Made by a program: the position numbers and the translations under genes
Part shown: positions 1 through 14,728 of the stretch, one piece after another
Numbering within the stretch: position 1 is the first letter of the stretch
Layout: the number at the start of each line of letters is the position of its first letter
Virus record (IMG/VR): IMGVR_UViG_3300048834_001059
Span: 1-29,289 of that record
DNA: 29,289 nucleotides
DNA from: a virus
Reading direction: 5' to 3' (one strand)
Notes under the pieces: model-generated
Database searches by the model: none
Seen by the model: only the letters and a program-made list of their open reading frames with translations
Told to the model about the DNA's origin: nothing

Positions 1-923
1 TGATGATCATGAACATTCCTGCGCTACGAGATTCGGACACGCAAACTCCGGGCTACTACTACGCAGTCGCATCGCTCGAGCCTGAAGAGGAGTGGACGGG
101 TGCGGTTTTGTTCGATTCACTCGACAACAGCAACTGGTCCACCGTGTTCCCGATCACACCGCAGGCCCAAGTGCTTCTGGCGAAGTCTGTTCTGCCCACA
201 GGGAAATCGGGGTACTGGGACAACGCGTCGACAGTCGATGTTGAGGTTCTGGCGGGCACGCTAAGCTCGAAAACTGATCTTGAGGTTCTGAATGGCGCAA
301 ACACCATCCTGCTAGGCAACGAGATTCTCTCTTTCTGTGACGCGACACTCATTGGAACGAGGCAGTACAGACTCAGCAGACTTCTTCGTGGGCTTCGAAA
401 CACTGAAGCGTCGATGCCTCTGCATCAGGTAAACGAGCGGGGCGTGCTCTTCAGCTCAGGAACTGTTGGATTCAAAGACTACGCGCTGGCATCAATCGGA
501 ACCACGCGCTACTTCAGGGCCGTGAGCTTCAACGCGCTTGTTGACGATGCAGACGAGACTCTCACTCGCAGTTTGGGTGCAGCGACCATCAAGCCCTTCT
601 CGCCGGCACACCTCAAAGGCTCGCGTATTGGAACGACTGATCTCACGATCACCTGGCAGTTGAGAAGTCGTGCGATTGTTCGTGCGTTTTCGATTGTACA
701 AGCGCCTGTCCTCGAGCCATTCGAGCGGTATCAGATCGAGATTCGAAATACCGCCGGTGGCACCGTTCTTCGAACGATTGAAGTTGATGAAGCGCGTACG
801 GTTACTTACACAACCGCTCAGCAAACAGCTGATGGTGTCACTCCTGGCGCGACTGTTCACGTTACCATCTACCAGATTTCCGATGTGATCGGCAGAGGAA
901 ACAAAACGGAGGCCTACCTGTGA
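1..923 (+). CDS. Tail tip / host-specificity protein, C-terminal part (5' truncated by window)
   Basis: The frame is open from the first base and no ribosome site precedes the first ATG at 3, so the gene almost certainly begins upstream. About 306 residues are visible. The segment LLRGLRNTE (visible residues 127-135), followed by a His and a hydrophobic strand, is the signature seen in the C-terminal region of RcGTA gp15 and related siphophage tail tip proteins. The last ~100 residues look like a fibronectin-type beta domain (alternating strands, TVTYTTAQQT). By family knowledge this protein sits at the distal tail and contacts the host. The stop overlaps the next gene's GTG (GTGA at 920-923), so the two are translationally coupled. 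The family call is good; the exact domain limits are inferred. Confidence 0.8.
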   Translation, partial: MIMNIPALRDSDTQTPGYYYAVASLEPEEEWTGAVLFDSLDNSNWSTVFPITPQAQVLLAKSVLPTGKSGYWDNASTVDVEVLAGTLSSKTDLEVLNGANTILLGNEILSFCDATLIGTRQYRLSRLLRGLRNTEASMPLHQVNERGVLFSSGTVGFKDYALASIGTTRYFRAVSFNALVDDADETLTRSLGAATIKPFSPAHLKGSRIGTTDLTITWQLRSRAIVRAFSIVQAPVLEPFERYQIEIRNTAGGTVLRTIEVDEARTVTYTTAQQTADGVTPGATVHVTIYQISDVIGRGNKTEAYL

Positions 924-2137
924 CTGCGACAACGCGCTTCTCTCTTGACCTCCTTGTCGAAGGGCAGGCTCAACCTGAGATCACCGTCAACACGGCACTC
1001 AACATCGTCGATGTCGTTGCACAGCTAAACGTCATCGATCGCAATCTCACAGCGCCTCCCGGCAGCCCAGCTGAGGGTGCACTCTACATCATTGCGACGG
1101 GAGGCACGGGTGCCTGGAGCGGCCAAGATGGGAAGCTCGCGATCTACTTCTCTGGGTGGTACTTCATCGCTCCCAAGGAAGGTTTCCAGGCGTGGGTCGC
1201 TGATGAAGACATCGTCGTCATCTACGACGGCTCTGCGTGGGTGACCCAGCTTGGCACGGGCGACATGGTCGCATCGACGTACGATTCAGACTCCGATGGG
1301 ATTGTCGATGCAGCTGAAGCTCTCGATGATGGCACACACAGCGTGTCTGCTGAAGATGTGGTCGACCACATCGCGGCATACAACCCACACGGCGCTACGG
1401 CGTCTGCAACGGCGAGCCGGTTGATTCTGCGTGACGGGAATGGTCGCGCCAAGGTGGCCAACCCTGTGGACGCTGCTGACATTGCTACCAAAGCCTACGT
1501 GGATGGCTTTGGTGGCGGCGGTGGTGGCGACATGGCGAAGGCTACCTATGACACGGACAACAACAACATCGTCGACGCTGCTGAAACCCTCGACGATGGC
1601 ACGCACACTATCTCTGCCGAAGACGTGGTTGATCACGTGGCTGACACCACCAACCCTCACAACGTCACGCACACGCAGGTGGGTGCTGAGGCGGCTGGCG
1701 CTGTCGCTACGCACGCAGCTCTGACTGGCACGCACGGTGTTACTGGGAGCATCGTGGGAACTGGCGGGGCGCAAGTGCTGTCGCAAAAGACGCTGACTTC
1801 GGTGAAGTACGCGTATTTCGATGCTGTCTACTCGAACGGCTCGAGTGATGCAGCCAAAGAGATCAACTTCAGCAACGGGCAAGACCAGAGCGTCTCAATC
1901 ACGGCCAACACCACACTTACTCTTCGCGCTCCGGGTGCAGGGCGTTTCAGCATCGACGTCATGATTGCAGGAGCTGGAGGGTACAACGTGGCGCTCGCAG
2001 GGTATGGAGGCCTTCCCGTGCTCACTCCCGGTGGTGAGGGTTACATTCCTTCGCAGAACATCGGCGACAAAGACACGCTTGTTGTGAAATTCACAGGAAG
2101 CGAGTACCGCGTGCAGGTTGTGAAAGATTGGAGATAG
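920..2137 (+). CDS. DUF2793-containing tail fibre-like protein with duplicated module
   Basis: The start is GTG at 920 inside GTGA, with CGGAGG about 7 bases upstream. The protein has 405 residues. Residues ~20-110 match the DUF2793 pattern of phage tail proteins (ALNIVDVVAQLNVIDR, then PAEGALYIIA and a W-rich strand region). Two imperfect copies of a ~45-residue module follow (from residue 114 and from residue 203), each starting GDM, carrying a D-x-D-x-x-x-IVDAAE segment, DDGTH, SAEDVVDH and ending NPH. They are separated by a glycine run. The NPH and GTHGVTG motifs are common in fibre shafts. The C-terminal ~110 residues look like a beta-rich head ending in a Trp-Arg. Its neighbours are tail genes. 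It is likely a distal tail fibre or adaptor; the receptor is unknown. Confidence 0.75.
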   Translation: MTATTRFSLDLLVEGQAQPEITVNTALNIVDVVAQLNVIDRNLTAPPGSPAEGALYIIATGGTGAWSGQDGKLAIYFSGWYFIAPKEGFQAWVADEDIVVIYDGSAWVTQLGTGDMVASTYDSDSDGIVDAAEALDDGTHSVSAEDVVDHIAAYNPHGATASATASRLILRDGNGRAKVANPVDAADIATKAYVDGFGGGGGGDMAKATYDTDNNNIVDAAETLDDGTHTISAEDVVDHVADTTNPHNVTHTQVGAEAAGAVATHAALTGTHGVTGSIVGTGGAQVLSQKTLTSVKYAYFDAVYSNGSSDAAKEINFSNGQDQSVSITANTTLTLRAPGAGRFSIDVMIAGAGGYNVALAGYGGLPVLTPGGEGYIPSQNIGDKDTLVVKFTGSEYRVQVVKDWR

Positions 2138-2139
2138 TC

Positions 2140-3087
2140 ATGGTGCTTCGACTGGTTGCGTGCGGAGAGAACAACACGATCGTCACATCCGACTCAGGCG
2201 AGAGTTTCGAAGTCGCGAACTCGCCTGTTGTCAGCGAAGGTGACGGCTCTCTTGACTGGTACGATGTTATTTTCGGCGAAGATAAGTTCGTTGCTGTGGG
2301 AAGCACGCGCTCAGCTGTGAGCATCACCGGCCGGATCTGGACCGCGAGCACGCTCTTGCCCGCAGCGTTGATCGGCGTTGCATTCGGCTCAGGCGTCTTC
2401 GTCGCAATCGCAGCGACAGGTGTCTACACATCCACTGATGGGCTCACGTGGACATCGCGTACGATCTCGATTCCGCTCGGAGCATCTCTTCGAGCTGTGG
2501 CGTTTCACGGCGACAAGTTCATTGTCGCGGGCGGGCACCCGAGTTCTGTCACAGCGGGATTTGCACGGCAATCGACTGATCTTGGGGTCACCTGGACGTC
2601 AGTGACTCTTCCAGCAAATTCGAGAACCATCAGCGACCTCGCTTTCGGCCAGCGCTGGTTTTCAGCGAGCCACAGCTTTGAGAAGCTGTATTCTGAGCAG
2701 GGTGGCTCGTGGACTCGTGCAAGTTCCGTACTTTCAGGGCTCGATGCGTATGCAGCTGCATTCGACGCGAAATCGAACTTGTACCTGATTGCAGGCTCGA
2801 CGGGTAAGTGTGATTTTAGCGCTGACGGAGTTAACTGGGCGGTGTTGCAGCCCCAGCGCCCGTTCTCGCGGGCGGTGCTCGACGTTGTTGCTTATCCATA
2901 CAAACAAGCGTACAACCTCTGGATCGCCGCCACGGACGCTGGGGTGTACGGGACCGCCATCTCGAATCAAGGCTCAGGATGGACACTTATCGAGACCCCA
3001 TCGCCCATCGCAATGAACGCGATTGCCTACGGTGAGATTCCCGAGAATCGAGGAGGGGCGGGACTCTTCTCTCTGGGTGGCCTCTAG
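2140..3087 (+). CDS. Tail-associated beta-propeller protein with BNR/Asp-box-like repeats
   Basis: ATG at 2140 is chosen over an upstream in-frame TTG (2128) because GGAG at 2130-2133 is 6 bases away and the previous gene stops at 2137. The protein has 315 residues. Repeated blades show VAFG/VAFHG-DKFIVAGG strands followed by Asp-box-like elements such as TSTDGLTWTS, QSTDLGVTWTS and FSADGVNWAV. This is typical of sialidase or Ycf48-like propellers. No catalytic sialidase residues can be assigned, so a binding or structural role at the tail tip is more likely than an enzyme. The gene ends at TAG 3085-3087 and overlaps the stop of the convergent QueE gene. Function in adsorption is inferred from position. 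Confidence 0.7.
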   Translation: MVLRLVACGENNTIVTSDSGESFEVANSPVVSEGDGSLDWYDVIFGEDKFVAVGSTRSAVSITGRIWTASTLLPAALIGVAFGSGVFVAIAATGVYTSTDGLTWTSRTISIPLGASLRAVAFHGDKFIVAGGHPSSVTAGFARQSTDLGVTWTSVTLPANSRTISDLAFGQRWFSASHSFEKLYSEQGGSWTRASSVLSGLDAYAAAFDAKSNLYLIAGSTGKCDFSADGVNWAVLQPQRPFSRAVLDVVAYPYKQAYNLWIAATDAGVYGTAISNQGSGWTLIETPSPIAMNAIAYGEIPENRGGAGLFSLGGL

Positions 3088-3845
3088 ATCCCGCGGCGAT
3101 ACCCCCACAGGATCGAGTGCAGTCGCGGGGTGACACAGAAGCCGTACTTGATCGCCGCCGGGGCCACGACGTCGCGTGCACACTTCAGAATCTCGTCAGT
3201 GGTGATGCCGTACGGCATCAAGTAGCAGCGTACGTCAGAGGCTCCCATGAACTTCTTTCTGAAGCTGATGGCAGCGTCAACATCAGCTTGATCACGAACA
3301 ACAAGCTTCACGCAGTCAGTTCCTGGTCGCATCCACTCGAGGATCGCGGAGCAGTGATAGGTGAGATCATCGTAGCTCCACATTCCGTGGAGGCAGGGAG
3401 TGATCTTGGGCGACAGCGACACCGCGTGGAAGTGAGTGTCGAGGAAGCTGACAACGTCCTCTTGAGTCGGTCCTCCCGCTCCAGCCTTGCCACAGAAGCC
3501 TGAGGTTTCGATGGCGATGTGGTTGAACCCGCCTCGCACAAGCACATTGAGCATCAGCGAGAACTCAGCGTTTTTGATCTGGAGCAGCGGCTCGCCCCCA
3601 GTGACGATGACGGCGGGGTACTTGCCGGCTGACAAGAGAACACTTGCACCGAGTTCCTCGATCTTCTGAAACACAGCCGCAGCGTTCCACGGTTGGGCCG
3701 CTTCCTTCCCGTTCCACGTGTAGCCAGTGTCACAGCCCGGGCACTTGACCGGGCAGTGATGCAGACGCAAGAAGATCGACGGAATCCCTACGTCGAGGCC
3801 TTCGCCTTGAATTGTGGGACCGTAGATTTCGTTGATGGGAATCAT
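3084..3845 (-). CDS. queE: 7-carboxy-7-deazaguanine synthase (radical SAM)
   Basis: 253 residues. QueE converts 6-carboxytetrahydropterin to 7-carboxy-7-deazaguanine, the third step from GTP to preQ0. The N-terminus EIYGPTIQGEG and the 4Fe-4S cluster motif C31-x3-C35-x2-C38 (CPVKCPGCD) are clear. TGGEP at 82-86 is the SAM-binding motif, and DVRCYLMPYG near the C-terminus also fits QueE. The ATG at 3845 has only a weak ribosome site (GCGAG). The gene lies at the far end of the leftward block, 12 kb from the other deazaguanine genes and on the opposite strand. It follows a ~105-base gap with an inverted repeat. Its function depends on QueD (upstream step) and QueC (downstream step), both present in the window. 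Confidence 0.93.
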   Translation of the reverse strand: MIPINEIYGPTIQGEGLDVGIPSIFLRLHHCPVKCPGCDTGYTWNGKEAAQPWNAAAVFQKIEELGASVLLSAGKYPAVIVTGGEPLLQIKNAEFSLMLNVLVRGGFNHIAIETSGFCGKAGAGGPTQEDVVSFLDTHFHAVSLSPKITPCLHGMWSYDDLTYHCSAILEWMRPGTDCVKLVVRDQADVDAAISFRKKFMGASDVRCYLMPYGITTDEILKCARDVVAPAAIKYGFCVTPRLHSILWGYRRGI

Positions 3846-3913
3846 GTTGTGTCTCGCTTGGGTTTGCGCTCCCGGGAGCTTCGTTTGGGTAATGGCTTGG
3901 ACGGCGTTCTCAA

Positions 3914-3940
3914 GGCTAGCACGCCCAGCGCTCGCTAGCC
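3914..3940. repeat. Intergenic inverted repeat
   Basis: GGCTAGC at 3914-3920 is mirrored by GCTAGCC at 3934-3940 with a 13-base loop. It sits between the stop of the ART-like gene and the start of queE. No T-run follows on the minus strand, so it is not a standard terminator. It could be a leader hairpin or a processing site for queE. Nothing else is visible in this gap. Confidence 0.4.
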
Positions 3941-3950
3941 GTCTCTTAAG

Positions 3951-4673
3951 CTATACGGCTGGCTGGGTGGCCAAGAATGCAATGCCCTCGCGGTTGCTAA
4001 TCATCTGCTGGTACTCAGCCAACATCCCCGGAAAATGCGACTCTCCGAAGAGCACGAACTCAGATGGCTTGATGGGGTTGTCGAAGAGCCACGCCGTGAG
4101 AGCGATGTACTTGTTCGAGCAGAACTGTTTGTTCAGCAAAGAGATCTGAGCATCGACGGCCACAGACCAGATGTCGACTCTGTCCCGGTCCCACGTAATC
4201 GCGCGCGTGATGGCCGATGTAGGAATGGCTCCACAGCAGCAGCACGTGCCGAGGCCGTCTGCTGAGTGCTGCCAGAGATCAGAGAACATGGGAAGGTTTT
4301 CTCGAAACCAGCGTGTGTTCTCGAGGCACTGCTTATGCGTGTCTGCCAGTCGACGCATTCCTCCACGGAAGCGATGGTCAGCCTTCGTACGATGGAGGTT
4401 GCGCGTCGCCTGCTCGAGAAAATCTTCGTCAGGCAGCATGTGCTCGAAGATGCTGTCGGTCTCGATCTCGATGATTGCCGGGTCCTGCTTTCCAGCCTGC
4501 TCTGCTGCAATCACCGCGAAGTACGGCGCGTAGCAGGTGGTCAGGTACACGCAGTCAGGTCGAGATTCTACCGTGTGGTTCCAGTTCGAAGTTTTGGTGA
4601 GCTCACGAGGAAGCAGACCTTCCTTCAATGCAGCCTCGGCGACTCGTCGAGTTGTTCCGTGGTAAAGCTTCAC
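3951..4673 (-). CDS. Putative ADP-ribosyltransferase-fold protein
   Basis: 240 residues, starting at GTG 4673 with GGGAG 8 bases upstream. The N-terminus KLYHGTTRRVAEAALKEGL is the first strand and helix of the ART fold (H5-G6-T7). It is followed by VYLTT (Y43) and an ALA-rich helix, then PAIIEIETDS. This is the order seen in KptA/TRPT1-like and other H-Y-x ART proteins. The middle holds a run of four cysteines at the GTCCCCGAIP segment; its role is not evident. The family may modify host protein, RNA or DNA, or remove 2'-phosphate from RNA; the sequence does not decide. It sits 2 bases downstream of the DUF2786 gene in the same leftward operon, an early-gene position that would suit host takeover or counter-defence. 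The fold call is moderate; the substrate is unknown. Confidence 0.55.
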   Translation of the reverse strand: MKLYHGTTRRVAEAALKEGLLPRELTKTSNWNHTVESRPDCVYLTTCYAPYFAVIAAEQAGKQDPAIIEIETDSIFEHMLPDEDFLEQATRNLHRTKADHRFRGGMRRLADTHKQCLENTRWFRENLPMFSDLWQHSADGLGTCCCCGAIPTSAITRAITWDRDRVDIWSVAVDAQISLLNKQFCSNKYIALTAWLFDNPIKPSEFVLFGESHFPGMLAEYQQMISNREGIAFLATQPAV

Positions 4674-4675
4674 GT

Positions 4676-5440
4676 TCAGGCTCCCAGCTGTTTTGCAACG
4701 TCACCCTGCTCGTCACGAGCCACGCCGTCGATATTCGCCTTGTCTCCGTCCTGCTTGCCCCGCATGTACCCATGGATGTTCTGCGTGCTGGGGCGGTTGA
4801 TGTCGGCCGCGTTCTTGAAATCCTGCTCTTTGATCCAAACGTCAACATCGTGCGTACCGACTCGGATCAGTGCCGCGGGCGAGTTCTGCTTGAGGGCAGC
4901 AGAGCGAGCTGCGTACCGAGCCGCGATGGCTGCGATAAACCCCATGATGTACGACTCGCGAAAACCACGAGCCCTCCACTGGGTCTTGGCCTTCTCCATC
5001 TCGTAGTAGAAGCTGTTGTACCGCGCGTTCGAAAGCTCCTCGATTGCGCGCGCCAGCGTTCCCGTGACGTAGATGGCAACCTGGCGGTCGACCTTGCGGC
5101 CGATGAAGGTGATCAGGTTGGTCTTGGTGCGGACGAGAAAGCGGCATCCGTGTGCTTTGGAGACGATGTGGGACAGCGCTTCGAGCCAGTTGCAGCGCTT
5201 GTGCTTCATCGAGAGTCCGAAGTCGCTCCAGTTGATGCGCTCACGGTTGATGGGGTCGTCCTGCTTCATCTGCTCGAACTCAAGATCAGACATGCTGAGC
5301 TTGTGCTCGTCGAGCATGGATTGTGCCTTCGTCGCAAACGCCTCGGCTTCAGCCTGACTGCCGATGGCCCTGCAGCTTGCGGCTTTGGCAAGCAGTTTCT
5401 TGATCTTGCTCAGCAGGTTGTCAGAAATGGTCTCGTTCAT
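4676..5440 (-). CDS. DUF2786 domain protein
   Basis: 254 residues from ATG 5440, chosen because AGGAAG lies just upstream; a longer frame to 5479 overlaps the preceding gene and lacks a site. Residues ~8-45 (KIKKLLAKAAS, then EAEAFATKAQSMLDEH) match DUF2786, a helical domain common in phages and actinobacteria. The following region with LITFIGRKVDRQVAIYVTG resembles the domain that usually accompanies DUF2786. The C-terminus is polar and probably disordered. Biochemical function is not known. It lies between the small gene at 5476-5871 and the ART-like gene, in one operon with gaps of 2 and 35 bases. Confidence 0.65.
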   Translation of the reverse strand: MNETISDNLLSKIKKLLAKAASCRAIGSQAEAEAFATKAQSMLDEHKLSMSDLEFEQMKQDDPINRERINWSDFGLSMKHKRCNWLEALSHIVSKAHGCRFLVRTKTNLITFIGRKVDRQVAIYVTGTLARAIEELSNARYNSFYYEMEKAKTQWRARGFRESYIMGFIAAIAARYAARSAALKQNSPAALIRVGTHDVDVWIKEQDFKNAADINRPSTQNIHGYMRGKQDGDKANIDGVARDEQGDVAKQLGA

Positions 5441-5475
5441 GTGTGCTTCCTCGTGAAGAAGGTGCGGGCTGTGCC

Positions 5476-5871
5476 TCACAGCCGATTTGTCTGGATGGTG
5501 CGGACGGCGTTACGAAGACGCAGGAGTTGATCGCGAAGATTGTTGAGCTTCCCTTCCATGGCGATCCCGGCCTTCTTCGCCTCTTCGACAACCTCAGCAG
5601 GAGGCGTGAATTCAGCAAGGGCCATCAGCGTTGCCATGCTGGCATCGATCTTGTAGCACTGTGCGAGCCGGGTCGCCGCCTGATTCTCGCACCACTTGAA
5701 GATGTGCTCTCTGCGGGCGTAAGACGGGTACTTCGCCAGCTTTTCGATGGCCTTCGTGATCTCGTTGTCGAGCTTTTCGAGTTCTTGATCGCGAAGACCG
5801 TTGAGGGCCGCTTCCCAGAGGCCTTCGTTGCTGTTCATGTACTGTGTGAGGTGGGTGAGGCGGGCCAGCAT
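5476..5871 (-). CDS. Hypothetical helical protein, first gene of leftward operon A
   Basis: 131 residues from ATG 5871 with AAGGAG 7 bases upstream. An in-frame GTG at 5910 exists but lies at or before the expected transcription start and belongs to the repeated leader, so it is rejected. The protein is almost entirely helical, with charged heptad-like stretches (DNEITKAIEKLAKYPSYARRE; KLNNLRDQLLRLRNAV). It is unrecognised by family. It is the first gene after promoter copy A (5915-5968), whose leader is identical to that of the gene at 25236. Confidence 0.65.
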   Translation of the reverse strand: MLARLTHLTQYMNSNEGLWEAALNGLRDQELEKLDNEITKAIEKLAKYPSYARREHIFKWCENQAATRLAQCYKIDASMATLMALAEFTPPAEVVEEAKKAGIAMEGKLNNLRDQLLRLRNAVRTIQTNRL

Positions 5872-5885
5872 GTTTCTGCTCCTTC

Positions 5886-5910
5886 GTGTGGGTGGATTTG
5901 TCCACCACAC
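5886..5910 (-). other. Leader hairpin of operon A
   Basis: On the minus strand the leader can fold as GTGTGGTGGA paired with TCCACC-C-ACAC (one bulged C) around a CAAA loop, directly upstream of the AAGGAG site. It is the same as the hairpin at 25197-25221. Confidence 0.55.
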
Positions 5911-5914
5911 CTAC

Positions 5915-5968
5915 AGCATAGCAAATCCACGCACGATGTCAACCCCGTGGCAACAAAAATTTCATGTT
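5915..5968 (-). promoter_or_regulatory. Promoter copy A (sigma70-like, with conserved upstream box)
   Basis: On the minus strand: CATGAAATTT, then TTGCCACGGGG, then TTGACA (5937-5942) and TATGCT (5915-5920) with a 16-base spacer. A 9-bp dyad, GTGGATTTG/CAAATCCAC (5892-5930), spans the -10 and the start region. It drives the genes 5871 to 3084. Confidence 0.85.
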
Positions 5969-6289
5969 TTATTCGTCGCCTTCGAGATTCAGCTTCTTCT
6001 GTGCTGCTCGCTGCCCGAGCGGCGACCGAGGCTCTCCTGGTGCACGCATGTAGTGGTCATTGCCGATTGCATCGACGTTCTTCACGACGACTCCCGGGTT
6101 GGGCGGTGGCGGCAGCGTCCACTCGATTCGTACGGGATGCGTTGGGTCATGTGAGCACTTGAGCCCGTGTTTTATCCTGATCGACGTGAGGCCGCAGAAC
6201 GAGCCGTCCACTTCGCAGAACACCTTGTAGCGCATTTCAGCGAGGAACAGCTCGCTGATTGACATGTAGTTTACAGGTTTCAGAGGCAT
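5969..6289 (-). CDS. Hypothetical protein
   Basis: 106 residues from ATG 6289, with GGTGGA 6 bases upstream; it overlaps the preceding gene by 10 bases. The middle has CSHDPTHPVRIEWTLPPPPN, a Cys/His and proline-rich segment that could form a small metal site but matches no family I can name. The C-terminus is basic, then acidic. The TAA stop falls at the outer edge of promoter copy A. It is the last gene of the transcript from promoter D unless that transcript reads on. Confidence 0.55.
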   Translation of the reverse strand: MPLKPVNYMSISELFLAEMRYKVFCEVDGSFCGLTSIRIKHGLKCSHDPTHPVRIEWTLPPPPNPGVVVKNVDAIGNDHYMRAPGEPRSPLGQRAAQKKLNLEGDE

Positions 6290-6897
6290 AGACGGTCCAC
6301 CGAAGTTGTGATGTTGTCGATCCGCTGCTTGAGAGTATCGATAGCTTCTTCAGCAGCTCCAGCAGCTCCAGCACGCTCACGCATTCGCTTCGCAACCTGT
6401 TCGATGATGTGCGGCGGGGCTTTGATCGAGCGCTTGTTCTTCAGGCCGATGAGCACCACAGCACCTTCTTTCGCAAAGAGCTCAATCATCAGTTGAACTT
6501 TCTGCGACTCGAGAGCTCCAGGAATGACTTCGCGTGCAGTGATCGTTGGGATGCCCTCGGTGATGCCGTGGAGCCCGATATCGAAGATGACTCCAAGCAC
6601 GTCAGGCCTGTTGTGCGCCTCAGCCGCACCTTTCGCGTTTGCTTGACGCCACAGGCACTGATAGCTGGCACATTCAGCTGGGCGCTGAGGGAGGGTGTAG
6701 ATCGAGCATCCCTTCCCGTGCATCTCGTACTTGCACGGACTGTTCATTGGCTTCTCGAGATCTGAGACAGCCAGCGCTGTGCAGTACGCTGTGCACTCGC
6801 CGCAGGCATTCAGCTGCTTCAGCACAACTCTGCGTGCCGCCTGCTGCTGCGTGTAGTATGCGCGTCGAGCCTTTTCACGATCTCTGTTCGCACTCAT
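6280..6897 (-). CDS. YkgJ-like cysteine-cluster (zinc/iron-chelating) protein
   Basis: 205 residues, ATG 6897 with a strong AAGGAGG. After a basic N-terminal helix there is a cysteine-rich core: CGECTAYC, then C in NSPCKYE, C in GKGCSIY, then RPAECASYQCLW. This order, with RP-x-x-C near the end, is that of the YkgJ/UPF0153 family of putative zinc- or iron-binding proteins. The C-terminal half is helical and variable. The enzymatic role of the family is not established. It overlaps the upstream gene by 4 bases (ATGA). A second, different protein of this type lies in the deazaguanine cluster at 19023. Confidence 0.65.
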   Translation of the reverse strand: MSANRDREKARRAYYTQQQAARRVVLKQLNACGECTAYCTALAVSDLEKPMNSPCKYEMHGKGCSIYTLPQRPAECASYQCLWRQANAKGAAEAHNRPDVLGVIFDIGLHGITEGIPTITAREVIPGALESQKVQLMIELFAKEGAVVLIGLKNKRSIKAPPHIIEQVAKRMRERAGAAGAAEEAIDTLKQRIDNITTSVDRLCL

Positions 6898-7316
6898 CGC
6901 CGGCGCCTCCTTCTGTAGGTCCGTGGTTGTTTTGAATCGACCCAGCTTTGAAAATCGTCCTGAGCCTGAATATCAACGCTCTGCAGACTCCGAGTCTGCA
7001 AGGCGTGCATCTCAGCCCAGATGCGTGAAGCTGCTTCGTGGTATGCCTCATCGTGCTTGATCGAGTTCTTGAAGTTGGTGTAGTCGAGTTCTGCGGCCAG
7101 CGTTATCAGCACCACGTTCAGCTGCGTAGGCGTGACGTCCGGGATTCTGAAGCGGTAGTCAGCATCTTCGAGCTTCAGCGTGGGCGAGAGCTTTACAGGA
7201 ACGCGGCGTCTGAGGTTCTTGAGGTGCTGTGCAGTTCGAGCACGAATCTGAAAGTCTTCGCCCTCTTTCGAGTGTCGCACAATTGAGAAGAATCCGAACT
7301 TACTGAAAATCCACAT
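6894..7316 (-). CDS. Conserved phage hypothetical (MWIFSKFGFFSIV type)
   Basis: 140 residues, ATG 7316; AGGAG lies 11 bases upstream. The N-terminus MWIFSKFGFFSIVRHS followed by RARTAQHLKNL is a pattern I associate with a small conserved family found in phages and bacteria, of unknown function. The C-terminus ends in a run of arginines (YRRRRRR), which could bind nucleic acid. It overlaps the next gene by 4 bases, so the two are coupled. Confidence 0.6.
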   Translation of the reverse strand: MWIFSKFGFFSIVRHSKEGEDFQIRARTAQHLKNLRRRVPVKLSPTLKLEDADYRFRIPDVTPTQLNVVLITLAAELDYTNFKNSIKHDEAYHEAASRIWAEMHALQTRSLQSVDIQAQDDFQSWVDSKQPRTYRRRRRR

Positions 7317-7322
7317 TTGGGA

Positions 7323-7649
7323 TTATGCTCCTGTCTCGGTATAGGTTACAAGGCAAGCATCAAAGGCGATGGTCGCGTCTCCGCCTTTGAGATCAGGTTC
7401 GCAGGCCGCTGGCCACAGGATCATTCGACGCGAGAGGTTTACGTCGTGGAGACTTTCCTGACCCACTCCACGCCAAGTCGGCAGCATGCAGTTCCGCACA
7501 GCGCCGAGACTTGAGCTCGAGAAAGCACGAAGCTGATCTTCCTCGGATCGAAATGGTGCAATGCTTTCACTGCGACGTGTCACGCCACGCTCAAGCAGAC
7601 CCGGTTCGGGTCTGCTCTGTGCTCCGCCACATGGTGAAGAGAAAGACAT
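7323..7649 (-). CDS. Hypothetical protein
   Basis: 108 residues from ATG 7649, with GAGGTG upstream at good spacing; a longer frame to 7712 would overlap the upstream gene. The C-terminal half (WPAACEPDLKGGDATIAFDACLVTYTE) reads like a beta-strand domain. The N-terminal half is low in structure. The family is not recognised. An opposing plus-strand frame (7511-7876) is judged a shadow because the minus-strand genes here are tightly spaced with ribosome sites. Confidence 0.5.
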   Translation of the reverse strand: MSFSSPCGGAQSRPEPGLLERGVTRRSESIAPFRSEEDQLRAFSSSSLGAVRNCMLPTWRGVGQESLHDVNLSRRMILWPAACEPDLKGGDATIAFDACLVTYTETGA

Positions 7650-7654
7650 CGAAC

Positions 7655-7861
7655 TCACCTCAACGCAGTCACTGCCACGTAGCACGCGAGGACGATAATG
7701 CTCAGAGGCCACGCCACTCCCGCCACCAGCGCTGCAACGACGGATATGGCGACCAAAGCAAGCAGGGCTACTCCCTCAAACTCGCTCGTACGGCAGAAGT
7801 GAAGGAGGGTCCCCAAGTAAATCACGCTGACGAGCGCTCCTGCCATAGAGTACATTTGCAT
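7655..7861 (-). CDS. Small membrane protein
   Basis: 68 residues from ATG 7861, with CGGAG 7 bases upstream. An alternative GTG at 7915, inside a GTGA overlap with the preceding stop, would add 18 residues. Three hydrophobic stretches (about 6-22, 30-46 and 49-66) predict an integral membrane protein with a short polar loop near residues 23-29. Function is unknown; small early membrane proteins in phages often act on the host envelope or in exclusion, but that is not shown here. Confidence 0.55.
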   Translation of the reverse strand: MQMYSMAGALVSVIYLGTLLHFCRTSEFEGVALLALVAISVVAALVAGVAWPLSIIVLACYVAVTALR

Positions 7862-7911
7862 GACTGGCTCCGATGAGTGGTCGAGTAACCATACACCAAG
7901 AACGTGTACTC

Positions 7912-8268
7912 TCACTGCTTCACTGCGCTCGAAAGCTGGTAGGTGTTACCCTTCCCATCGTGAACCTTGAGGCCCGTCTTGAGCCACTCACTGACCTTGT
8001 TGATTGGCGCCCCGTTCGAGCGCGCGATCTCACGCACAAGATTCCTCGAGTACATGACAGTCTGAGGACCGCCGTTCACATTGAGGGTGGGCGTCCTTTC
8101 CTTCGCACAGCGCCATCCGATCTCGTACGCGGCCTTGAAGCACTCGCGGTGCTGCTCGCCGAAGTGCCTGAGATCAACATCGTAGAACGCAGTGATGGGA
8201 AGCCCTTCTTCGAAATCGAAGGCCGCGCGTCGGCGTAAGAATTCTTCGATTCGTTTGAACTTCGACAT
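7912..8268 (-). CDS. Hypothetical protein with possible HTH-like C-terminus
   Basis: 118 residues from ATG 8268 with AAGGAG 8 bases upstream. The N-terminus is basic (SKFKRIEEFLRRRAAF). The C-terminal part (LVREIARSNGAPINKVSEWLKTGLKVHDG) has the spacing of a helix-turn-helix followed by a strand, so DNA binding is possible. No firm family. It is preceded by a 75-base gap that holds a hairpin. Confidence 0.5.
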   Translation of the reverse strand: MSKFKRIEEFLRRRAAFDFEEGLPITAFYDVDLRHFGEQHRECFKAAYEIGWRCAKERTPTLNVNGGPQTVMYSRNLVREIARSNGAPINKVSEWLKTGLKVHDGKGNTYQLSSAVKQ

Positions 8269-8302
8269 CTTGGCTCTCCTTCTTGGCACCGTGCCGGGGC
8301 CA

Positions 8303-8325
8303 CCCTGCCGCTCACGTCGGCAGGG
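8303..8325. repeat. Intercistronic hairpin
   Basis: CCCTGCCG (8303-8310) and CGGCAGGG (8318-8325) form an 8-bp perfect stem with a 7-base loop between two leftward genes. No T-run follows on either strand, so it is more likely an mRNA processing or stability element than a terminator. Confidence 0.45.
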
Positions 8326-8343
8326 AAGCCCACGCAGGGGCGA

Positions 8344-8580
8344 TCACTTCTTGAGCTGCACCTCGCGCACATTCAGACAGCCCATGTACCAGACCACCCC
8401 AACACCGCTCTTTGGCCCAAAGTGAAGTTCAGCACGGCGGCCGTTCTTCGCGAGGAGCCCGAGCTTTTCATTGGGTGTGAGGGCGATGCCATTCTTGAGG
8501 CAAGCGTCGATGGCACCTTTGCCTGACTTGGGGGCGAACTTGAACCAGTCGGGTTTCACGGGGCGCTGGGTCTCGTGCAT
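8344..8580 (-). CDS. Small hypothetical protein, first gene after promoter D
   Basis: 78 residues from ATG 8580 with AAGGAG 7 bases upstream. The longer frame to 8613 is rejected because it begins at the expected transcription start and has no ribosome site. Composition is basic, with a VGVVWYMGCLNVREVQL beta-like end. No family recognised. Confidence 0.55.
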   Translation of the reverse strand: MHETQRPVKPDWFKFAPKSGKGAIDACLKNGIALTPNEKLGLLAKNGRRAELHFGPKSGVGVVWYMGCLNVREVQLKK

Positions 8581-8598
8581 GATGGGGCTCCTTCTGTA

Positions 8599-8611
8599 GC
8601 TCGTCTCGAGC
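8599..8611 (-). other. Leader hairpin of operon D
   Basis: On the minus strand, GCTCG-AGA-CGAGC forms a 5-bp stem in the leader, ending a few bases before AAGGAG. The sequence differs from the other leader hairpins but the placement is the same. Confidence 0.4.
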
Positions 8612-8619
8612 ATACCTAT

Positions 8620-8674
8620 ATTATAGCAACTCTCGAGATGAAGTCAACCCCGTGGCAAAAAAAAATTTCATGCT
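8620..8674 (-). promoter_or_regulatory. Promoter copy D
   Basis: On the minus strand: CATGAAATTT and a T-run, then GCCACGGGG, TTGACT (8642-8647), a 16-base spacer and a perfect TATAAT (8620-8625). It drives the operon starting at 8580. Confidence 0.85.
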
Positions 8675-8681
8675 GCGTGCA

Positions 8682-9074
8682 TCAAATGATGGTGAAACGC
8701 TTCATGCAGATCTGAATGGCCTCTTCGAGATCTTTGCCTCGCAGCTCAGTGTTGAGAAGAAGAACTTCTTCTGTGTCCCAACCAGCTGCGAGAGCAGCCT
8801 TCGCTGCCTCGGACCTGATGGTGAACTTCGAGCAGGCGTCGTCAGACAGCTTCAGAACGGGAAGCTCACGTCGGGGCTTGACGATGCTCATCCAGATGTT
8901 GCTATCGCCACCTTCAGCAATGATGAGCTCAAGTCCGTGCTCTTGCAGAAGTGAATCGAACGCCTCGACAATTGCTTGGACGCTCGCGCTGGGTGCTCCG
9001 ATGTACTTTCTTCCTTGTGCGTCTCGCGGGGTGCTGGTCGGATCCTGCTCCGCGTTGAGATAGGTCTTTCGCAT
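8682..9074 (-). CDS. Hypothetical protein, first leftward gene from the divergent promoter
   Basis: 130 residues from ATG 9074 with AAGGAG 7 bases upstream; a longer frame to 9107 has no ribosome site. It is a mixed alpha/beta protein (ASVQAIVEAFDSLLQEHGLELIIAEGG early, then AAKAALAAGWDTEEVLLL). No recognised family. It is the only gene between promoter C(-) and promoter D. Confidence 0.6.
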   Translation of the reverse strand: MRKTYLNAEQDPTSTPRDAQGRKYIGAPSASVQAIVEAFDSLLQEHGLELIIAEGGDSNIWMSIVKPRRELPVLKLSDDACSKFTIRSEAAKAALAAGWDTEEVLLLNTELRGKDLEEAIQICMKRFTII

Positions 9075-9111
9075 GGCGAGCTCCTTGTGTGCTGGGTTTG
9101 AGTACATCTAC

Positions 9112-9166
9112 ATAATAGCATATCCTGTGACGCTGTCAACCCCGCAGACAGGGAAACATGAAATTT
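9112..9166 (-). promoter_or_regulatory. Promoter copy C, leftward
   Basis: On the minus strand: AAATTTCATG, then TGCGGGG, TTGACA (9134-9139), a 16-base spacer and TATTAT (9112-9117). It shares its upstream region with the rightward promoter at 9152-9206. Confidence 0.85.
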
Positions 9167-9206
9167 GTTGCTGCCGGGTTGACATCATGAGACCAGTAAC
9201 TATAAT
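9152..9206 (+). promoter_or_regulatory. Promoter copy C, rightward
   Basis: ACATGAAATTTGTTGCTGCCGGG-type box, TTGACA (9179-9184), 16-base spacer, perfect TATAAT (9201-9206). It drives the gene at 9244. Confidence 0.88.
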
Positions 9207-9214
9207 GTATCCAT

Positions 9215-9229
9215 GGTGGTCGTCCCACC
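9215..9229 (+). other. Leader hairpin upstream of 9244
   Basis: GGTGG and CCACC form a 5-bp stem with a TCGTC loop, immediately before the AAGGAG at 9231-9236. Confidence 0.45.
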
Positions 9230-9243
9230 GAAGGAGATTCAAG

Positions 9244-9456
9244 ATGGCCGTGACGAAGCAAGAAGCCAAAGAACTTCTTGAGGATGTGCACAGCAACCTC
9301 ACGACTGATTTGGCTGAAGCTGAAGCGTTGATTGCTGAGCTGAACCAGCAAGAGAGAACGTCCGAGAGGCAGGATCTGCTGCACATCTTCTGCAACACGC
9401 GGCAGCGTTTGGTCGATGCTGCCGCAGAAGTCAGCCGATTCATCGCCATGCTGTGA
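9244..9456 (+). CDS. Small helical (coiled-coil) protein
   Basis: 70 residues, ATG 9244 with AAGGAG 7 bases upstream. Almost the whole chain is predicted helix with regular hydrophobic spacing (TKQEAKELLEDVHSNLTTDL, then DLLHIFCNTRQRLVDAAAEV), suggesting a coiled-coil dimer. No family recognised. It is the first rightward gene from the divergent promoter, a position where regulators are common. Confidence 0.65.
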   Translation: MAVTKQEAKELLEDVHSNLTTDLAEAEALIAELNQQERTSERQDLLHIFCNTRQRLVDAAAEVSRFIAML

Positions 9457-9476
9457 TTTCAAGAGGAGCAGATGTC

Positions 9477-9569
9477 ATGCACAAAGAAGCGAGACGGCAC
9501 TACAGTGAACTGGCGGCACAGCAGTTCGACATCTACCGTTGGAGCACAACGGGGCTCAGTTGGTGGTAG
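9477..9569 (+). CDS. Very small ORF ending in an in-frame amber
   Basis: ATG 9477 lies 8 bases after AGAGGAG (about 9462-9468). The frame encodes 30 residues beginning MHKEARRHYSELAAQQFDIY and ends at TAG 9567-9569. The same frame stays open after the TAG to TGA 9726-9728. ATG 9472 in another frame is only 3 bases from the site and its frame runs through the terminator, so it is less likely. The gene may be real and 30 residues long, or the first part of an 83-codon gene interrupted by the amber. No family recognised. Confidence 0.4.
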   Translation: MHKEARRHYSELAAQQFDIYRWSTTGLSWW

Positions 9570-9728
9570 CAGGCGTATCGCCGCGGCCGCGCAACTGGTG
9601 TGTGGGTGTACATGTGCACCGTCACGGCTACCAATCCGTGGGCCGCGTGCGCTGAGGCGCGCAAAGACTACCCGCGAGTCACCCGCAAGGGCACGCGTCT
9701 TCGAGCCATGCCGCTGTGGAAGCGCTGA
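9570..9728 (+). other. Open frame continuing after the amber codon
   Basis: In the same frame as 9477, codons run on without stop through an ATG at 9612 (no ribosome site) to TGA 9726-9728. The predicted tail is basic (ARKDYPRVTRKGTRLRAMP). It is followed 15 bases later by a strong terminator, so transcription does cover it. It could be the second half of a broken or recoded gene, or non-coding. Confidence 0.25.
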
Positions 9729-9743
9729 CGCGATCTTCGACCT

Positions 9744-9778
9744 GCAGAGGGCGGCAGAACACGCCGCCCTCTGCTTTT
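9744..9778 (+). terminator. Rho-independent terminator
   Basis: GCAGAGGGCGGC (9744-9755) pairs perfectly with GCCGCCCTCTGC (9763-9774), 12 bp with a 7-base loop, followed by TTTT. It closes the transcript from promoter C(+) and sits 3 bases before the next -35. Confidence 0.92.
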
Positions 9779-9780
9779 GC

Positions 9781-9809
9781 TTGACAGCGCGAGCTTTCCA
9801 CTATATAAT
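9781..9809 (+). promoter_or_regulatory. Consensus sigma70 promoter
   Basis: TTGACA (9781-9786), 17-base spacer, TATAAT (9804-9809). It is a perfect match to consensus and lacks the conserved upstream box of the six-copy module, because the terminator occupies that space. It drives 9829 and 10070. Confidence 0.9.
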
Positions 9810-9828
9810 TGCCCGGGAGTACATAGCA

Positions 9829-10122
9829 ATGAAGCTCGTCCAAGAATCGCCACAAGTGAAACGGATCGACGGTCTGCTGACCATCACGGGTGTTGCGCGG
9901 CTCTTCAGCCGCTCAGCGTTGACGATTCTTCAGTGGCGTACGTACAACGGCTTGCCCTACGTGGTGCTTCCGGGCGATGAGCGCCCATCGATTCGCTACG
10001 AACTCGATGAAGTTCGTGCCTGGGCTCGACGCGAAGGGAAGGCTGTCCTCGAGGAAGGAGGAACCAGCGATGCAGAACAGCGAGCAAATCCTACTGAGCT
10101 TGCAGGCGCTGAAGCCCTCTGA
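9829..10122 (+). CDS. Winged-helix/HTH (MerR/excisionase-like) DNA-binding protein
   Basis: 97 residues from ATG 9829. There is no strong ribosome site; the leader after the consensus promoter is very short, so the start may be near-leaderless. Residues ~16-70 have the pattern of a helix-turn-helix of the MerR/excisionase type: LTITGVARLFSRSALTILQW, then a wing (YNGLPYVVLPGD) and IRYELDEVRAWARREGK. It probably binds DNA as a phage regulator. The gene has its own consensus promoter and overlaps the next gene by 53 bases. It is a candidate to act on the repeated promoter module, but this is inference. Confidence 0.65.
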   Translation: MKLVQESPQVKRIDGLLTITGVARLFSRSALTILQWRTYNGLPYVVLPGDERPSIRYELDEVRAWARREGKAVLEEGGTSDAEQRANPTELAGAEAL

Positions 10123-10561
10123 GCTTGAACAAGTGCGAGCCCGCACTCTGGCTCTCCTCTCCCGACCGCGTGAGCGTCTTGAGTACGAGATGGTTCATCG
10201 GCACGCCCAGACACTCATGAAGCAGGCGACGGGTGTTGAGTTGCCTCCATACCACGTTTGTGCGAAGACGATGGCAAACTTCGATGACTTCAGGGGTGGG
10301 GTTGACGTGCTTCTGAAGTTCATTGCGAAGCACTTGAAGCCGAAGACGCGAGCTGAACTCAGCGGCGCGGTGTTTCTGGTGCTCCGGGTGCTGATCGGAA
10401 GAATGCAGGAGCTCGACGTGCCCGTCGGATATCGAACGCTGACCCAAGCTCTTCATCGAACTGCGGTTGAGGTTGATGCTGCGTTTCCGGGCTACGTTCG
10501 ATCTGGGCTGCTGCCGTGCATCTTGTCTGCTGCAAACTCAGGCCGAATCGGTCGGGTATAG
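10070..10561 (+). CDS. Hypothetical helical protein
   Basis: 163 residues. ATG 10070 is preceded by AAGGAGGAACC, an excellent site. Longer in-frame starts lie inside the HTH gene and have none. The protein is mostly helical with leucine-rich stretches (LKPSELEQVRARTLALL; GAVFLVLRVLIGRMQEL). No family recognised. It overlaps the HTH gene by 53 bases and ends 21 bases before a terminator, so the two genes form a small closed operon and may act together. Confidence 0.65.
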   Translation: MQNSEQILLSLQALKPSELEQVRARTLALLSRPRERLEYEMVHRHAQTLMKQATGVELPPYHVCAKTMANFDDFRGGVDVLLKFIAKHLKPKTRAELSGAVFLVLRVLIGRMQELDVPVGYRTLTQALHRTAVEVDAAFPGYVRSGLLPCILSAANSGRIGRV

Positions 10562-10582
10562 TTGAGCGTGATGCCTCTGCTC

Positions 10583-10620
10583 CGCCTCCGAGAGTTGCCT
10601 CGGCTCTCGGAGGCGTTTTT
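10583..10620 (+). terminator. Rho-independent terminator
   Basis: CGCCTCCGAGAG (10583-10594) pairs perfectly with CTCTCGGAGGCG (10604-10615), 12 bp with a 9-base loop, followed by TTTTT. It ends the 9829-10561 operon. Confidence 0.93.
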
Positions 10621-10632
10621 CTTTACAGTCCT

Positions 10633-10711
10633 TCGCTGGCTGGGCGTGTGCTGAACAAGTTGATCAGCCCGCCCGATGAGTCCCAGTCCTGAATCGGCGC
10701 CCAGCCAGCGA
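10633..10711 (+). ncRNA. Candidate structured RNA (long inverted repeat with inner helices)
   Basis: TCGCTGGCTGGGCG (10633-10646) and CGCCCAGCCAGCGA (10698-10711) are a perfect 14-bp inverted repeat enclosing 51 bases. Inside, GCTGA/TCAGC (10650-10668) and CCGA/TCGG (10673-10697) can pair, giving a three-way junction directly under the long stem. CTTTTC follows. The loop is too long for a normal terminator. It lies between a terminator and the helicase ATG (10728), where no clear promoter is visible. It may be a leader element, a processing site or a small RNA. Confidence 0.45.
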
Positions 10712-10727
10712 CTTTTCGAAGTGAGCC

Positions 10728-12143
10728 ATGCAGAAGCTTTCAGGTGCAATTCAAGAAGCGCTGCTCGCGTTGATCTGCTACGATAAAGCAGGCAGAACGA
10801 TCCAGTCACTTCTCCCTGCTCCGATTTTCGATCCTTACTATCGCGACATCGCTGCTGAAGCCTATCAGTACTTGTCCAAGTACAATCAGCCTCCGAGTGA
10901 GCACACTCTCGATATCATTGAGAGTCTGGTTGCACGAAGGCCGGATGCCAAGCAGGTCTTCGAACGCCTGTTTGAATCGCTCCAAGCGACGCGGCAGGGA
11001 ATCAACAGTGAGTACGTTCTGCAGCAGGCCGCTGAGTTTGCAAGACGCCAGCGCTTGAAAGCAGGGATCGCACGAGCAGTTGAGGTTCTTGAGCAAGATG
11101 AGCAGAATGTCGCTGAAGCAGAGGCAAGTCTTCGAGCTGCGGTCGAAGGCTCGTACGAGTTGTTCAATCCGGGTATCGTGCTGACTGATGCGAAGCGCAG
11201 CCTCGCGTTTCTTGACAACGTGAGTGACGGGCTGGCGACCGGAATTCCTGAGTTCGATCGGCTGGGGATCGGTCCGGGACGCAAAGAACTGCATGTCTTC
11301 GTCGCTCCTCCCGGTCGAGGCAAAAGCTGGTGGCTCATTTCGCAGCTTGGCAAGCGGGCGCTACTCACGCGCCAGCGTGTGGTTCACGTGACTCTTGAAA
11401 TGAGCGAAGAGCAGGTCTGCCAGAGGTACATGCAGGCGTTGTTTTCGTTCCAGAAGCGTCGTGAAGATACCACGCAGTATCGGTTCAGGCGCGATGAGCT
11501 TGGGCGTCTCGCCTCATTTGATCCTGAAGTTGTATCTGGGCGGCCAGCGTTGACTGACGCGAGCATTCGAGATTTCCTCACGCAGAGCTTAGACAAGATC
11601 AGCTCGCGACCTCCCATTCTTGTGAAGCAGTTCCCGACAGGCGCGCTCACGGTTCCCGAGCTTGAAGCCTACCTCGACAGCCTTGAAGGTTCGTTGCATA
11701 TCATCCCAGATCTTCTGATCGTCGATTACGCAGATCTGATGAAAACGACGACGAACAATTACAGACATGATCTTGGTGCCCTCTACCGTGATCTTCGCGG
11801 TCTGGCGATCAAGCGCAACCTTCGAGTTGTGACGGCCAGTCAGAGCAATCGTGACGGTGCTGGGGCCAAGCAAATCAGCGATCGACACATCGCGGAAGAC
11901 TACTCGAAGGTGGCAACCGCGGATTGTATCATTTCGTACAGCCAGACGGACGCCGAGAAGCAGTTGAATCTCGCACGTCTCTTTGTAATGAAGTGTCGAG
12001 CCGATCAAGACAAGTTCACCGTGCTCATCTCACAGAACTACGCTCTTGGGCAGTTCTGTATGGATAGCATCGGGATGGTGAGCGACTACTGGGATCTACT
12101 CGATTCGCAGACAGCAGCAGATGATTCAGATGCAGACGACTGA
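10728..12143 (+). CDS. Replicative DNA helicase, DnaB-like (RecA-fold)
   Basis: 471 residues, close to the usual DnaB length. The N-terminal ~150 residues are helical, as in DnaB. Walker A is APPGRGKSW (193-201), LEMSEE (about 223-228) is the motif after the Walker A strand, and Walker B is LLIVDYADL (329-337). An RDLRGLAIKRNLRVVTASQSN segment matches the next motif, with glutamine sensor. The C-terminal tail is acidic. It should unwind DNA 5'-3' at the fork and recruit the primase encoded two genes later. The ribosome site is weak (AGTGAG). No promoter is evident between the terminator at 10620 and the start. Confidence 0.88.
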   Translation: MQKLSGAIQEALLALICYDKAGRTIQSLLPAPIFDPYYRDIAAEAYQYLSKYNQPPSEHTLDIIESLVARRPDAKQVFERLFESLQATRQGINSEYVLQQAAEFARRQRLKAGIARAVEVLEQDEQNVAEAEASLRAAVEGSYELFNPGIVLTDAKRSLAFLDNVSDGLATGIPEFDRLGIGPGRKELHVFVAPPGRGKSWWLISQLGKRALLTRQRVVHVTLEMSEEQVCQRYMQALFSFQKRREDTTQYRFRRDELGRLASFDPEVVSGRPALTDASIRDFLTQSLDKISSRPPILVKQFPTGALTVPELEAYLDSLEGSLHIIPDLLIVDYADLMKTTTNNYRHDLGALYRDLRGLAIKRNLRVVTASQSNRDGAGAKQISDRHIAEDYSKVATADCIISYSQTDAEKQLNLARLFVMKCRADQDKFTVLISQNYALGQFCMDSIGMVSDYWDLLDSQTAADDSDADD

Positions 12144-12145
12144 AA

Positions 12146-13696: not shown

Positions 13697-13714
13697 GGCC
13701 GTTTCGCTTAGAAT
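13686..13714 (+). promoter_or_regulatory. Promoter for a leaderless primase mRNA
   Basis: TTGACG (13686-13691), 17-base spacer, TAGAAT (13709-13714). It overlaps the 3' end of the SNF2 gene. The expected start lies 2-3 bases before the primase ATG at 13724, leaving no room for a ribosome site. Confidence 0.65.
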
Positions 13715-13723
13715 GGGCGCCCT

Positions 13724-14704
13724 ATGGGCTTTGATTTCGTTGGACTGATGCAGTCGAGGGGCATCCAGTTCTCGACGCGGGGCAGAAATGTCCAGCGTGG
13801 GCATGTCGTGACACACTGCCCGTTCTGTGGCAGTGCCGACCCGTCCCAACACATGGGGATTGAGATCTCGACAGGCAAGTGGGGATGCTGGCGAGATGCG
13901 ATGCATCGCGGTCGGCGGCCTGAGCGTCTCATTCGAGCCATGCTCAGGTGCTCGTGGGAAGAAGCGGTTGAGCTTGCCAAAACAGGCGAGATTCCCGACA
14001 CCAGCGATCTTCGGCGACGGGTTGACGCACTCTTCTCGCCTCGAGATCGAGTTGAGCCTTCGAACGTTGAGCCACCCGACGACTTCTTTCGAATCGACGA
14101 GAGAAGGGGTGAGCGCTTCATGTCGTATCTTCTTGATCGAGGATTCGCAGCCACGGACATCCCAACGCTGTGCCATCACTATGGGCTCAAAGGATGCTTA
14201 ACTGGAACGTTCCGTCATCGAGTCATCATTCCATTCTTCTTTCGCGGAGACTTGGTTGGATGGACGGCTCGAGCCATCGCAGCAGCTGAGAATCGTTATC
14301 TCTCATTTCCCAACTCAGAAGCCGTCAAGCGTATTCTCTACAACTTCGATGAGGCGTCGCTCGGAGGTGACGCTCTTGTTGTTGTTGAGGGTCCGATCGA
14401 TGCACTCAAGATCGACTTCTATGCGAAGCAGCAGCGCGTTCGAGCGATAGGGCTGCTGGGGCTGTCGTTCACCGAGGCCCAGATCTCTTTGCTTGTTGAA
14501 GTGGCAAAGCGCTTTACCCACACCTACATTCTTCTCGACCCGGGAGCTGAAGTGCAGGCGATGCGACTCAAAGCGCAACTCGCCTTGATTTCACCAAAAA
14601 TACTGGATGTTGGGAAGGGCATCGAAGATCCCGGAGCGATGACGCAAGAGCAGGTTCAGCTGCTTGCAAAAAAAATTCATGAAATTTTGTTGCCACGGGG
14701 TTGA
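13724..14704 (+). CDS. DNA primase, DnaG-like (zinc ribbon plus TOPRIM)
   Basis: 326 residues, shorter than bacterial DnaG (about 580) because it lacks the C-terminal helicase-binding domain. The N-terminal zinc-binding element has C32-x2-C35 (CPFCG) and C55-x5-H61. The core contains HRVIIPFFFRGDLVGWTARA, as in DnaG. TOPRIM is LVVVEGPIDALK with E222, and a second acidic position at D272 (LLDPG). It makes RNA primers for the fork. No ribosome site precedes ATG 13724 and a promoter ends 9 bases before it, suggesting a leaderless transcript. Its last residues and TGA stop (14702-14704) are encoded by promoter copy B. Confidence 0.87.
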   Translation: MGFDFVGLMQSRGIQFSTRGRNVQRGHVVTHCPFCGSADPSQHMGIEISTGKWGCWRDAMHRGRRPERLIRAMLRCSWEEAVELAKTGEIPDTSDLRRRVDALFSPRDRVEPSNVEPPDDFFRIDERRGERFMSYLLDRGFAATDIPTLCHHYGLKGCLTGTFRHRVIIPFFFRGDLVGWTARAIAAAENRYLSFPNSEAVKRILYNFDEASLGGDALVVVEGPIDALKIDFYAKQQRVRAIGLLGLSFTEAQISLLVEVAKRFTHTYILLDPGAEVQAMRLKAQLALISPKILDVGKGIEDPGAMTQEQVQLLAKKIHEILLPRG

Positions 14705-14728
14705 CATCTTGATGAGGGATACTAGACT
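14674..14728 (+). promoter_or_regulatory. Promoter copy B
   Basis: TTCATGAAATTTTGTTGCC then ACGGGG, TTGACA (14701-14706), 16-base spacer, TAGACT (14723-14728). The downstream GTAG-AGTGGTGGACAAAT segment resembles copies A and E. It drives the DUF932 gene. Confidence 0.8.

Follow-up and report, generated by a model that had tools for sequence, protein, structure and literature searches.

The genome of this uncultivated bacterial virus, a complete record of 29,289 bases that is called the window here, carries an inverted pair of identical 105-nt blocks, each placed directly before a different gene. In the reading that we favour, with a probability of about 0.72, the block would be an early-promoter cassette used by the host polymerase, copies of which have spread within the genome by recombination, the two identical copies having been made so recently.

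The minus-strand copy (copy A) and the plus-strand copy (copy B) lie 19,160 nt apart (Table 1) and agree at 105 of 105 nucleotides, as found by a repeat search and by direct string comparison. The coding strand of the block reads AATAAAACATGAAATTTTTGTTGCCACGGGGTTGACATCGTGCGTGGATTTGCTATGCTGTAGGTGTGGTGGACAAATCCACCCACACGAAGGAGCAGAAACATG. Comparison of the flanks showed the match to be maximal, since identity breaks off at the very next base in either direction and the sequences beyond are unrelated, and by arithmetic the random expectation of such an exact 105-mer pair in 29 kb is far less than 1e-50. The block bridges two genes, from the stop codon of the one before it to the ATG of the one behind. 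Copy A has the TAA of the preceding gene (5969–6289) within its first bases, while in copy B an upstream 62-aa frame (24957–25145), which may not be a real gene, stops at the TGA of CATGA inside it. With a stop codon at one end and an ATG at the other, the copied unit thus extends from the end of one gene to the start of another. The initial annotation had described an inverted 105-bp pair containing promoter, leader and start codon; the exact coordinates and the anatomy of the block bear out both points.

Table 1. Positions of the block, its elements, related copies and selected genes in the window.
Feature	Position	Strand	Remarks
Copy A, promoter-leader-ATG block	5869–5973	−	predicted to drive 5476–5871 (−)
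Copy A, −35 TTGACA	5942–5937	−	promoter-like site scan
Copy A, −10 TATGCT	5920–5915	−	promoter-like site scan
Copy A, leader hairpin	5910–5886	−	from sequence
Copy A, AAGGAG	5884–5879	−	from sequence
Copy A, ATG	5871–5869	−	from sequence; final three bases of block, start of 5476–5871 (−)
Copy B of block	25134–25238	+	predicted to drive 25236–25502 (+), between PolA and DnaX
Copy B, upstream box CATGAAATTTTTGTTGCCACGGGG	25141–25164	+	AT-rich UP-like part plus GTTGCCACGGGG adjoining −35
Copy B, −35	25165–25170	+	promoter-like site scan
Copy B, −10	25187–25192	+	promoter-like site scan
Copy B, leader hairpin GTGTGGTGGACAAATCCACCCACAC	25197–25221	+	immediately before ribosome site
Copy B, AAGGAG	25223–25228	+	
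Copy B, ATG	25236–25238	+	final three bases of block, start of 25236–25502 (+)
131-aa protein behind copy A	5476–5871	−	no family above cut-off
88-aa protein behind copy B	25236–25502	+	no family; several small genes lie between PolA and DnaX, this one first
Family copy	14678–14748	+	82% to block; before DUF932 gene 14823–15809
Family copy	8606–8672	−	74–77%; before 8344–8580 (−); TTGACT-16-TATAAT; own leader hairpin
Family copy, leftward half of divergent promoter pair	9098–9159 (about)	−	65% to copy A; before 8682–9074 (−)
Family copy, rightward half of divergent pair	9154–9226	+	64% to 14682 copy; TTGACA-16-TATAAT; before 9244–9456 (+)
7-deazaguanine gene	3084–3845	−	
7-deazaguanine genes	16452–16907, 17592–18410, 18433–19023, 20039–21298	+	

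Within the block, an upstream box is followed by TTGACA-16-TATGCT with a TG extension, a leader hairpin, AAGGAG and the ATG. Repeat and similarity searches of the window added four weaker members at 64–81% identity, giving a family of six in which only the A/B pair is identical. The promoter-like site scan found a −35/−10 pair at every family copy and 12 such sites in positions 1–15000, against 4.5 ± 2.3 in shuffled sequences. All family copies match the sigma70-type consensus at 10–12 of 12 positions, and the block is probably a sigma70-type promoter that host RNA polymerase would read. The upstream box is clear in four copies (A, B, 14678 and 8672) and partial at 9160; as an alternative to a mere UP-like role, it could be a site for a phage regulator. 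The start-proximal part, CACGAAGGAGCAGAAACATG, was found at the pair only.

When the five distinct copies were aligned by anchoring on the −35, conservation was highest at the −35 region (95%), followed by the extended −10 (70%), the upstream box (51%), the spacer (47%) and the leader (39%). Because spacer and leader vary freely in the other copies, the identity of the pair points to recent copying, which is likelier than selection alone as the source of 105 identical bases; constraint alone would not preserve 105 of 105. Recent copying or gene conversion, as the initial annotation had proposed, is therefore supported by a driftless identity that stands against paralogues at 64–81%. A BLAST match of the 14678 copy extends past the block towards copy B only. 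Naming a donor from this flank was considered and rejected, as the alignment is not significant and 0.39 of random stretches score as well.

A 61-nt segment of copy B holding the leader hairpin folds at −18.8 kcal/mol (z of −2.1 against shuffles). Hairpins of differing sequence are predicted in four leaders (the pair, 14748, 8606 and 9205), of which only that of the pair folds better than shuffled sequence while the other three do not, so that a leader hairpin conserved across the family is suggestive only. Reading the pair's hairpin as a terminator was rejected, there being no T-run and no terminator-like site in either copy of the block. A leader riboswitch, for example of the preQ1 type, was likewise discarded: the window gave no Rfam match at the gathering score, and an Rfam search of the leader at E values up to 5 returned nothing meaningful. 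The leader may act in mRNA stability or translation.

Two further features of the region were seen alongside the family. The primase frame (13724–14704, +) passes through the upstream box of the 14678–14748 copy and stops in its −35, the copy encoding the last codons of the frame (IHEILLPRG and stop); the window primase ends a few residues beyond the end found in most relatives, and the cassette supplies its predicted C-terminus. At 9744–9809 (+), a 12-pair terminator-like hairpin is followed directly by a perfect-consensus promoter (TTGACA-17-TATAAT) that lacks the family box, and a small HTH-like reading frame downstream (about 9830–10122) is possibly a separately controlled regulator gene.

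The proteins behind the pair have no Pfam family above cut-off and no PHROG family, and comparison within the window showed the proteins downstream of its cassettes to be unrelated to one another; for the pair, this had been claimed from first inspection. As the two genes behind the pair are without relatives, no ancestral cassette-free site was seen, which weighs against the favoured reading.

Nucleotide searches of a phage collection and of viral contigs with the window or the cassette core gave no match, nor did searches for close relatives in which PolA and DnaB served as single-protein queries; relatives were recovered by profile searches. The nearest cultured phages by PolA and DnaB are Edwardsiella phage ZHS and the Vibrio Mardecavirus group, at 32–37%, and uncultivated relatives reach 40% (PolA) and 51% (DnaB). 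The one-strand order DnaB-SNF2-primase-clamp-PolA-DnaX-p27959-SSB is common to the window and most relatives. A 7-deazaguanine gene set (QueE, QueD, QueC, FolE and DpdA-like), several members of which were matched by tblastn to annotated ZHS genes, suggests that the DNA of this phage carries modified guanine.

The initial annotation had held relatives lacking the duplication to count against it. To the letter they do lack it, since the 105-nt block itself occurs in 0 of 62 related records searched, but some hold different cassettes at comparable places. Differently spelled promoter-leader families of their own were found in five relatives. The uncultivated phage G031 (IMGVR_UViG_3300030103_003037; 31,870 b) has 11 full cassettes of 125–140 nt, running from an A-rich box to ATGACC, 66–88% identical pairwise and placed in one direction only before unrelated ORFs, together with five additional copies of the start-proximal part only. 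Its cassettes fall into two promoter subtypes with one shared leader, and one of them, at 4448 in reverse-complement coordinates, seems to have lost its interior, from box to leader. G034 (IMGVR_UViG_3300028191_000002) carries three copies (82–97%), one of them directly before a DUF932 gene, and its leader hairpin is kept despite a base change (GAGGGTAA/TTATCCTC or AGGATAA/TTATCCT). Five shorter copies are spread over both strands of G004 (IMGVR_UViG_3300038393_001567), one between PolA and DnaX. Vibrio phage MAR10 and Edwardsiella phage ZHS have four and two repeats, respectively, which are promoter-like, AT-rich and intergenic, with a weak −35. These multi-copy families before unrelated genes strengthen the earlier idea of a portable expression cassette. 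A repeat search, which misses short motifs, found no such family in 28 of the 33 related records, many of them fragments, and this too weighs against the favoured reading.

Other repeats in the relatives were set apart. Those in L010, L014, L021, L026 and L030 proved to be coding or low-complexity rather than promoters. A 129-nt repeat in L015 (10720–10848 and 13331–13459; 97%) runs into two gene starts and holds a long palindrome (CAGTACGCACAGCGTCAGCTGTGCGTACTACTG); no clear sigma70 promoter was recognised in it, and it was left out of the family count for that reason. The accessory region of MAR10 (L009) also contains 23-bp tandem repeats, CCTAAGTGCCTAGGAGGTTTCAA and GGGTGCCGCCTTACTAACGAGCT, at 41774–42049 and 49615–49752.

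Although the cassettes differ in sequence, they appear to recur at the same sites, in small counts that make a pattern and not a test. Of the 27 relatives in which PolA and DnaX are co-directional, 23 have a gap of at most 450 nt between them. The window has a gap of 2.0 kb and G004 one of 5.2 kb, and a cassette stands at the head of both. A cassette also precedes the DUF932 gene of the window (14678) and that of G034, and in ZHS the second repeat heads a short operon containing DUF932. The 2.8-kb PolA-DnaX gap of a further relative, G033, has no promoter-like site at its head and, read by eye, begins with an apparent NUMOD4/HNH endonuclease gene. As this gap opens with an endonuclease-like gene and no promoter, the stretch between PolA and DnaX acquires genes by more than one route.

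The two cassette-led gaps, so much longer than those of most relatives, would also fit a moron-like unit, in which a promoter and its gene were duplicated together and the old gene was replaced or lost, leaving the promoter identity as the footprint of an insertion; the small genes between PolA and DnaX would be such an inserted group. We consider this improbable, if worth keeping in view, as the long gap of G033 lacks a promoter at its head, the inserted group is not closed by a terminator, its GC content is the same as that of its surroundings and homology does not continue beyond the ATG. A rather less probable account makes the block an array site, bound over its whole length by a phage protein, its identity being held by selection and not by recent copying. 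The box upstream of the −35, common to at least four copies, is what such a regulator might recognise, but spacer and leader have diverged in the other copies and yet are identical in the pair, and binding does not need 105 identical bases that end exactly at a start codon.

The two remaining accounts concern the genome as a whole, and both are very unlikely. Repeat-induced misjoining or a chimaeric duplicate could arise in a metagenome contig, where 105 nt can exceed the k-mer of the assembler; however, each copy has unique, gene-coherent sequence on either side, synteny with relatives continues across the right copy and true paralogous copies exist elsewhere. An assembly artefact is unlikely because the strands and gene order around both copies are coherent and match those of relatives. 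The initial annotation further suggested that the inverted copies could flip the 19 kb between them, which as a switch has the smallest chance of all. Such a flip is possible in principle: 105 identical inverted bases are long enough for homologous recombination, and ZHS and MAR10 encode RecA and gp46/47-like nucleases. The suggestion nevertheless found no support, as nearly all relatives have the genes arranged as DnaB-SNF2-primase-clamp-PolA and then DnaX, 27 of 29 related records have PolA and DnaX pointing the same way, and the segment 5974–25133 lies in the orientation of this conserved order. After a flip, both promoters would still face the same outer genes and the replication operon would run opposite to the genes around it. 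Neither a recombinase gene nor a recombinase site was recognised next to the copies.

Dispersed promoter cassettes of comparable design are known from other phages. In cluster K mycobacteriophages, the ESAS is a 46–47-bp motif with SigA-like −35 and −10 elements spaced 17–18 bp apart, joined before genes of different families to an SAS that sits at the start codon; consensus sequences differ between subclusters, and the function of the ESAS itself is unproven (PMC3203893, PMC11373665, PMC12699233). The window too has dispersed intergenic sigma70-like promoter copies before unrelated genes, and the full and start-only copies of G031 mirror the split into ESAS with SAS and SAS alone. However, the 13-bp start motif of the SAS (GGGATAGGAGCCC) is absent from the window block, as is the 17-bp imperfect inverted repeat upstream of it, the sole inverted repeat of the block being the leader hairpin downstream of the −10. 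The window also differs in having this leader hairpin and a 105-nt identical pair, and the phages are unrelated to cluster K.

The promoter-early stem-loops (PeSLs) of T4-type phages reportedly occur as near-identical dispersed copies among small accessory genes. Each joins a strong sigma70-type early promoter to a stem-loop that terminates transcription, and gene shuffling by recombination is attributed to them (PMC4503421). The window copies share the combination of promoter and stem-loop and the near-identical dispersion among small accessory genes, and by consensus they would match a strong sigma70-like early promoter, but the stem-loop of a PeSL is a terminator, whereas in the window the hairpin is part of the 5' leader, carries no T-run and is not terminator-like. 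Nor did shuffled gene order show up among the relatives, none of them close to the window. Mobile promoters of prokaryotes are likewise near-identical promoter-bearing intergenic stretches before unrelated genes; they belong to bacteria and are frequently associated with insertion sequences. The block is itself such a promoter-bearing intergenic stretch, but it differs from the IS/MITE type in lacking terminal inverted repeats, a target duplication and a transposase. Comparison of its ends and flanks showed that AAACATG (7 nt) recurs directly at both block ends; with only this at the ends and no terminal inverted repeats, transposition is disfavoured. Judged by its sequence, the window cassette would work like ESAS/SAS and resembles PeSLs, but it is neither, because start motif, inverted repeat and terminator are all lacking; it is best described as a variant of the dispersed phage promoter cassettes.

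The early-expression cassette that we favour would be self-contained, comprising an upstream box, a sigma70-type promoter with extended −10, a 5' leader hairpin, a strong ribosome site and the ATG, with at least six such promoters placed in a divergent early region and at the front of short operons whose genes are small or accessory. One copy of the pair may have overwritten the other, or have been inserted as its copy, by ectopic exchange or conversion, and selection would have retained the result where the ends fell between a stop and a start codon. As hairpin and ribosome site travel along, any gene placed behind the cassette would be expressed at once. The sequences themselves show the anatomy of the block, its family, the exact pair, the unrelated genes downstream and the differently spelled families of relatives, whereas promoter activity and its early timing, the part played by the leader and recombination as the copying route are inferred.

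Repeated phage promoter cassettes have been described chiefly in T4-type phages and cluster K mycobacteriophages; here, unrelated families of one design occur in several related phages, together with a fresh 105-nt pair. A more tentative extension, which we hold to be possible but doubtful, is that early promoters evolve in concert, each phage spreading its own cassette and periodically rewriting the copies, so that positions persist although the sequence itself is exchanged completely between relatives. If this were true, the window pair would be one rewriting event caught fresh. The leader hairpins and upstream boxes offer ready-made material for reporter assays, and the cassettes provide a way to test how phages may connect newly acquired genes to early expression, namely by placing a copy of a complete promoter-leader-start unit before them.
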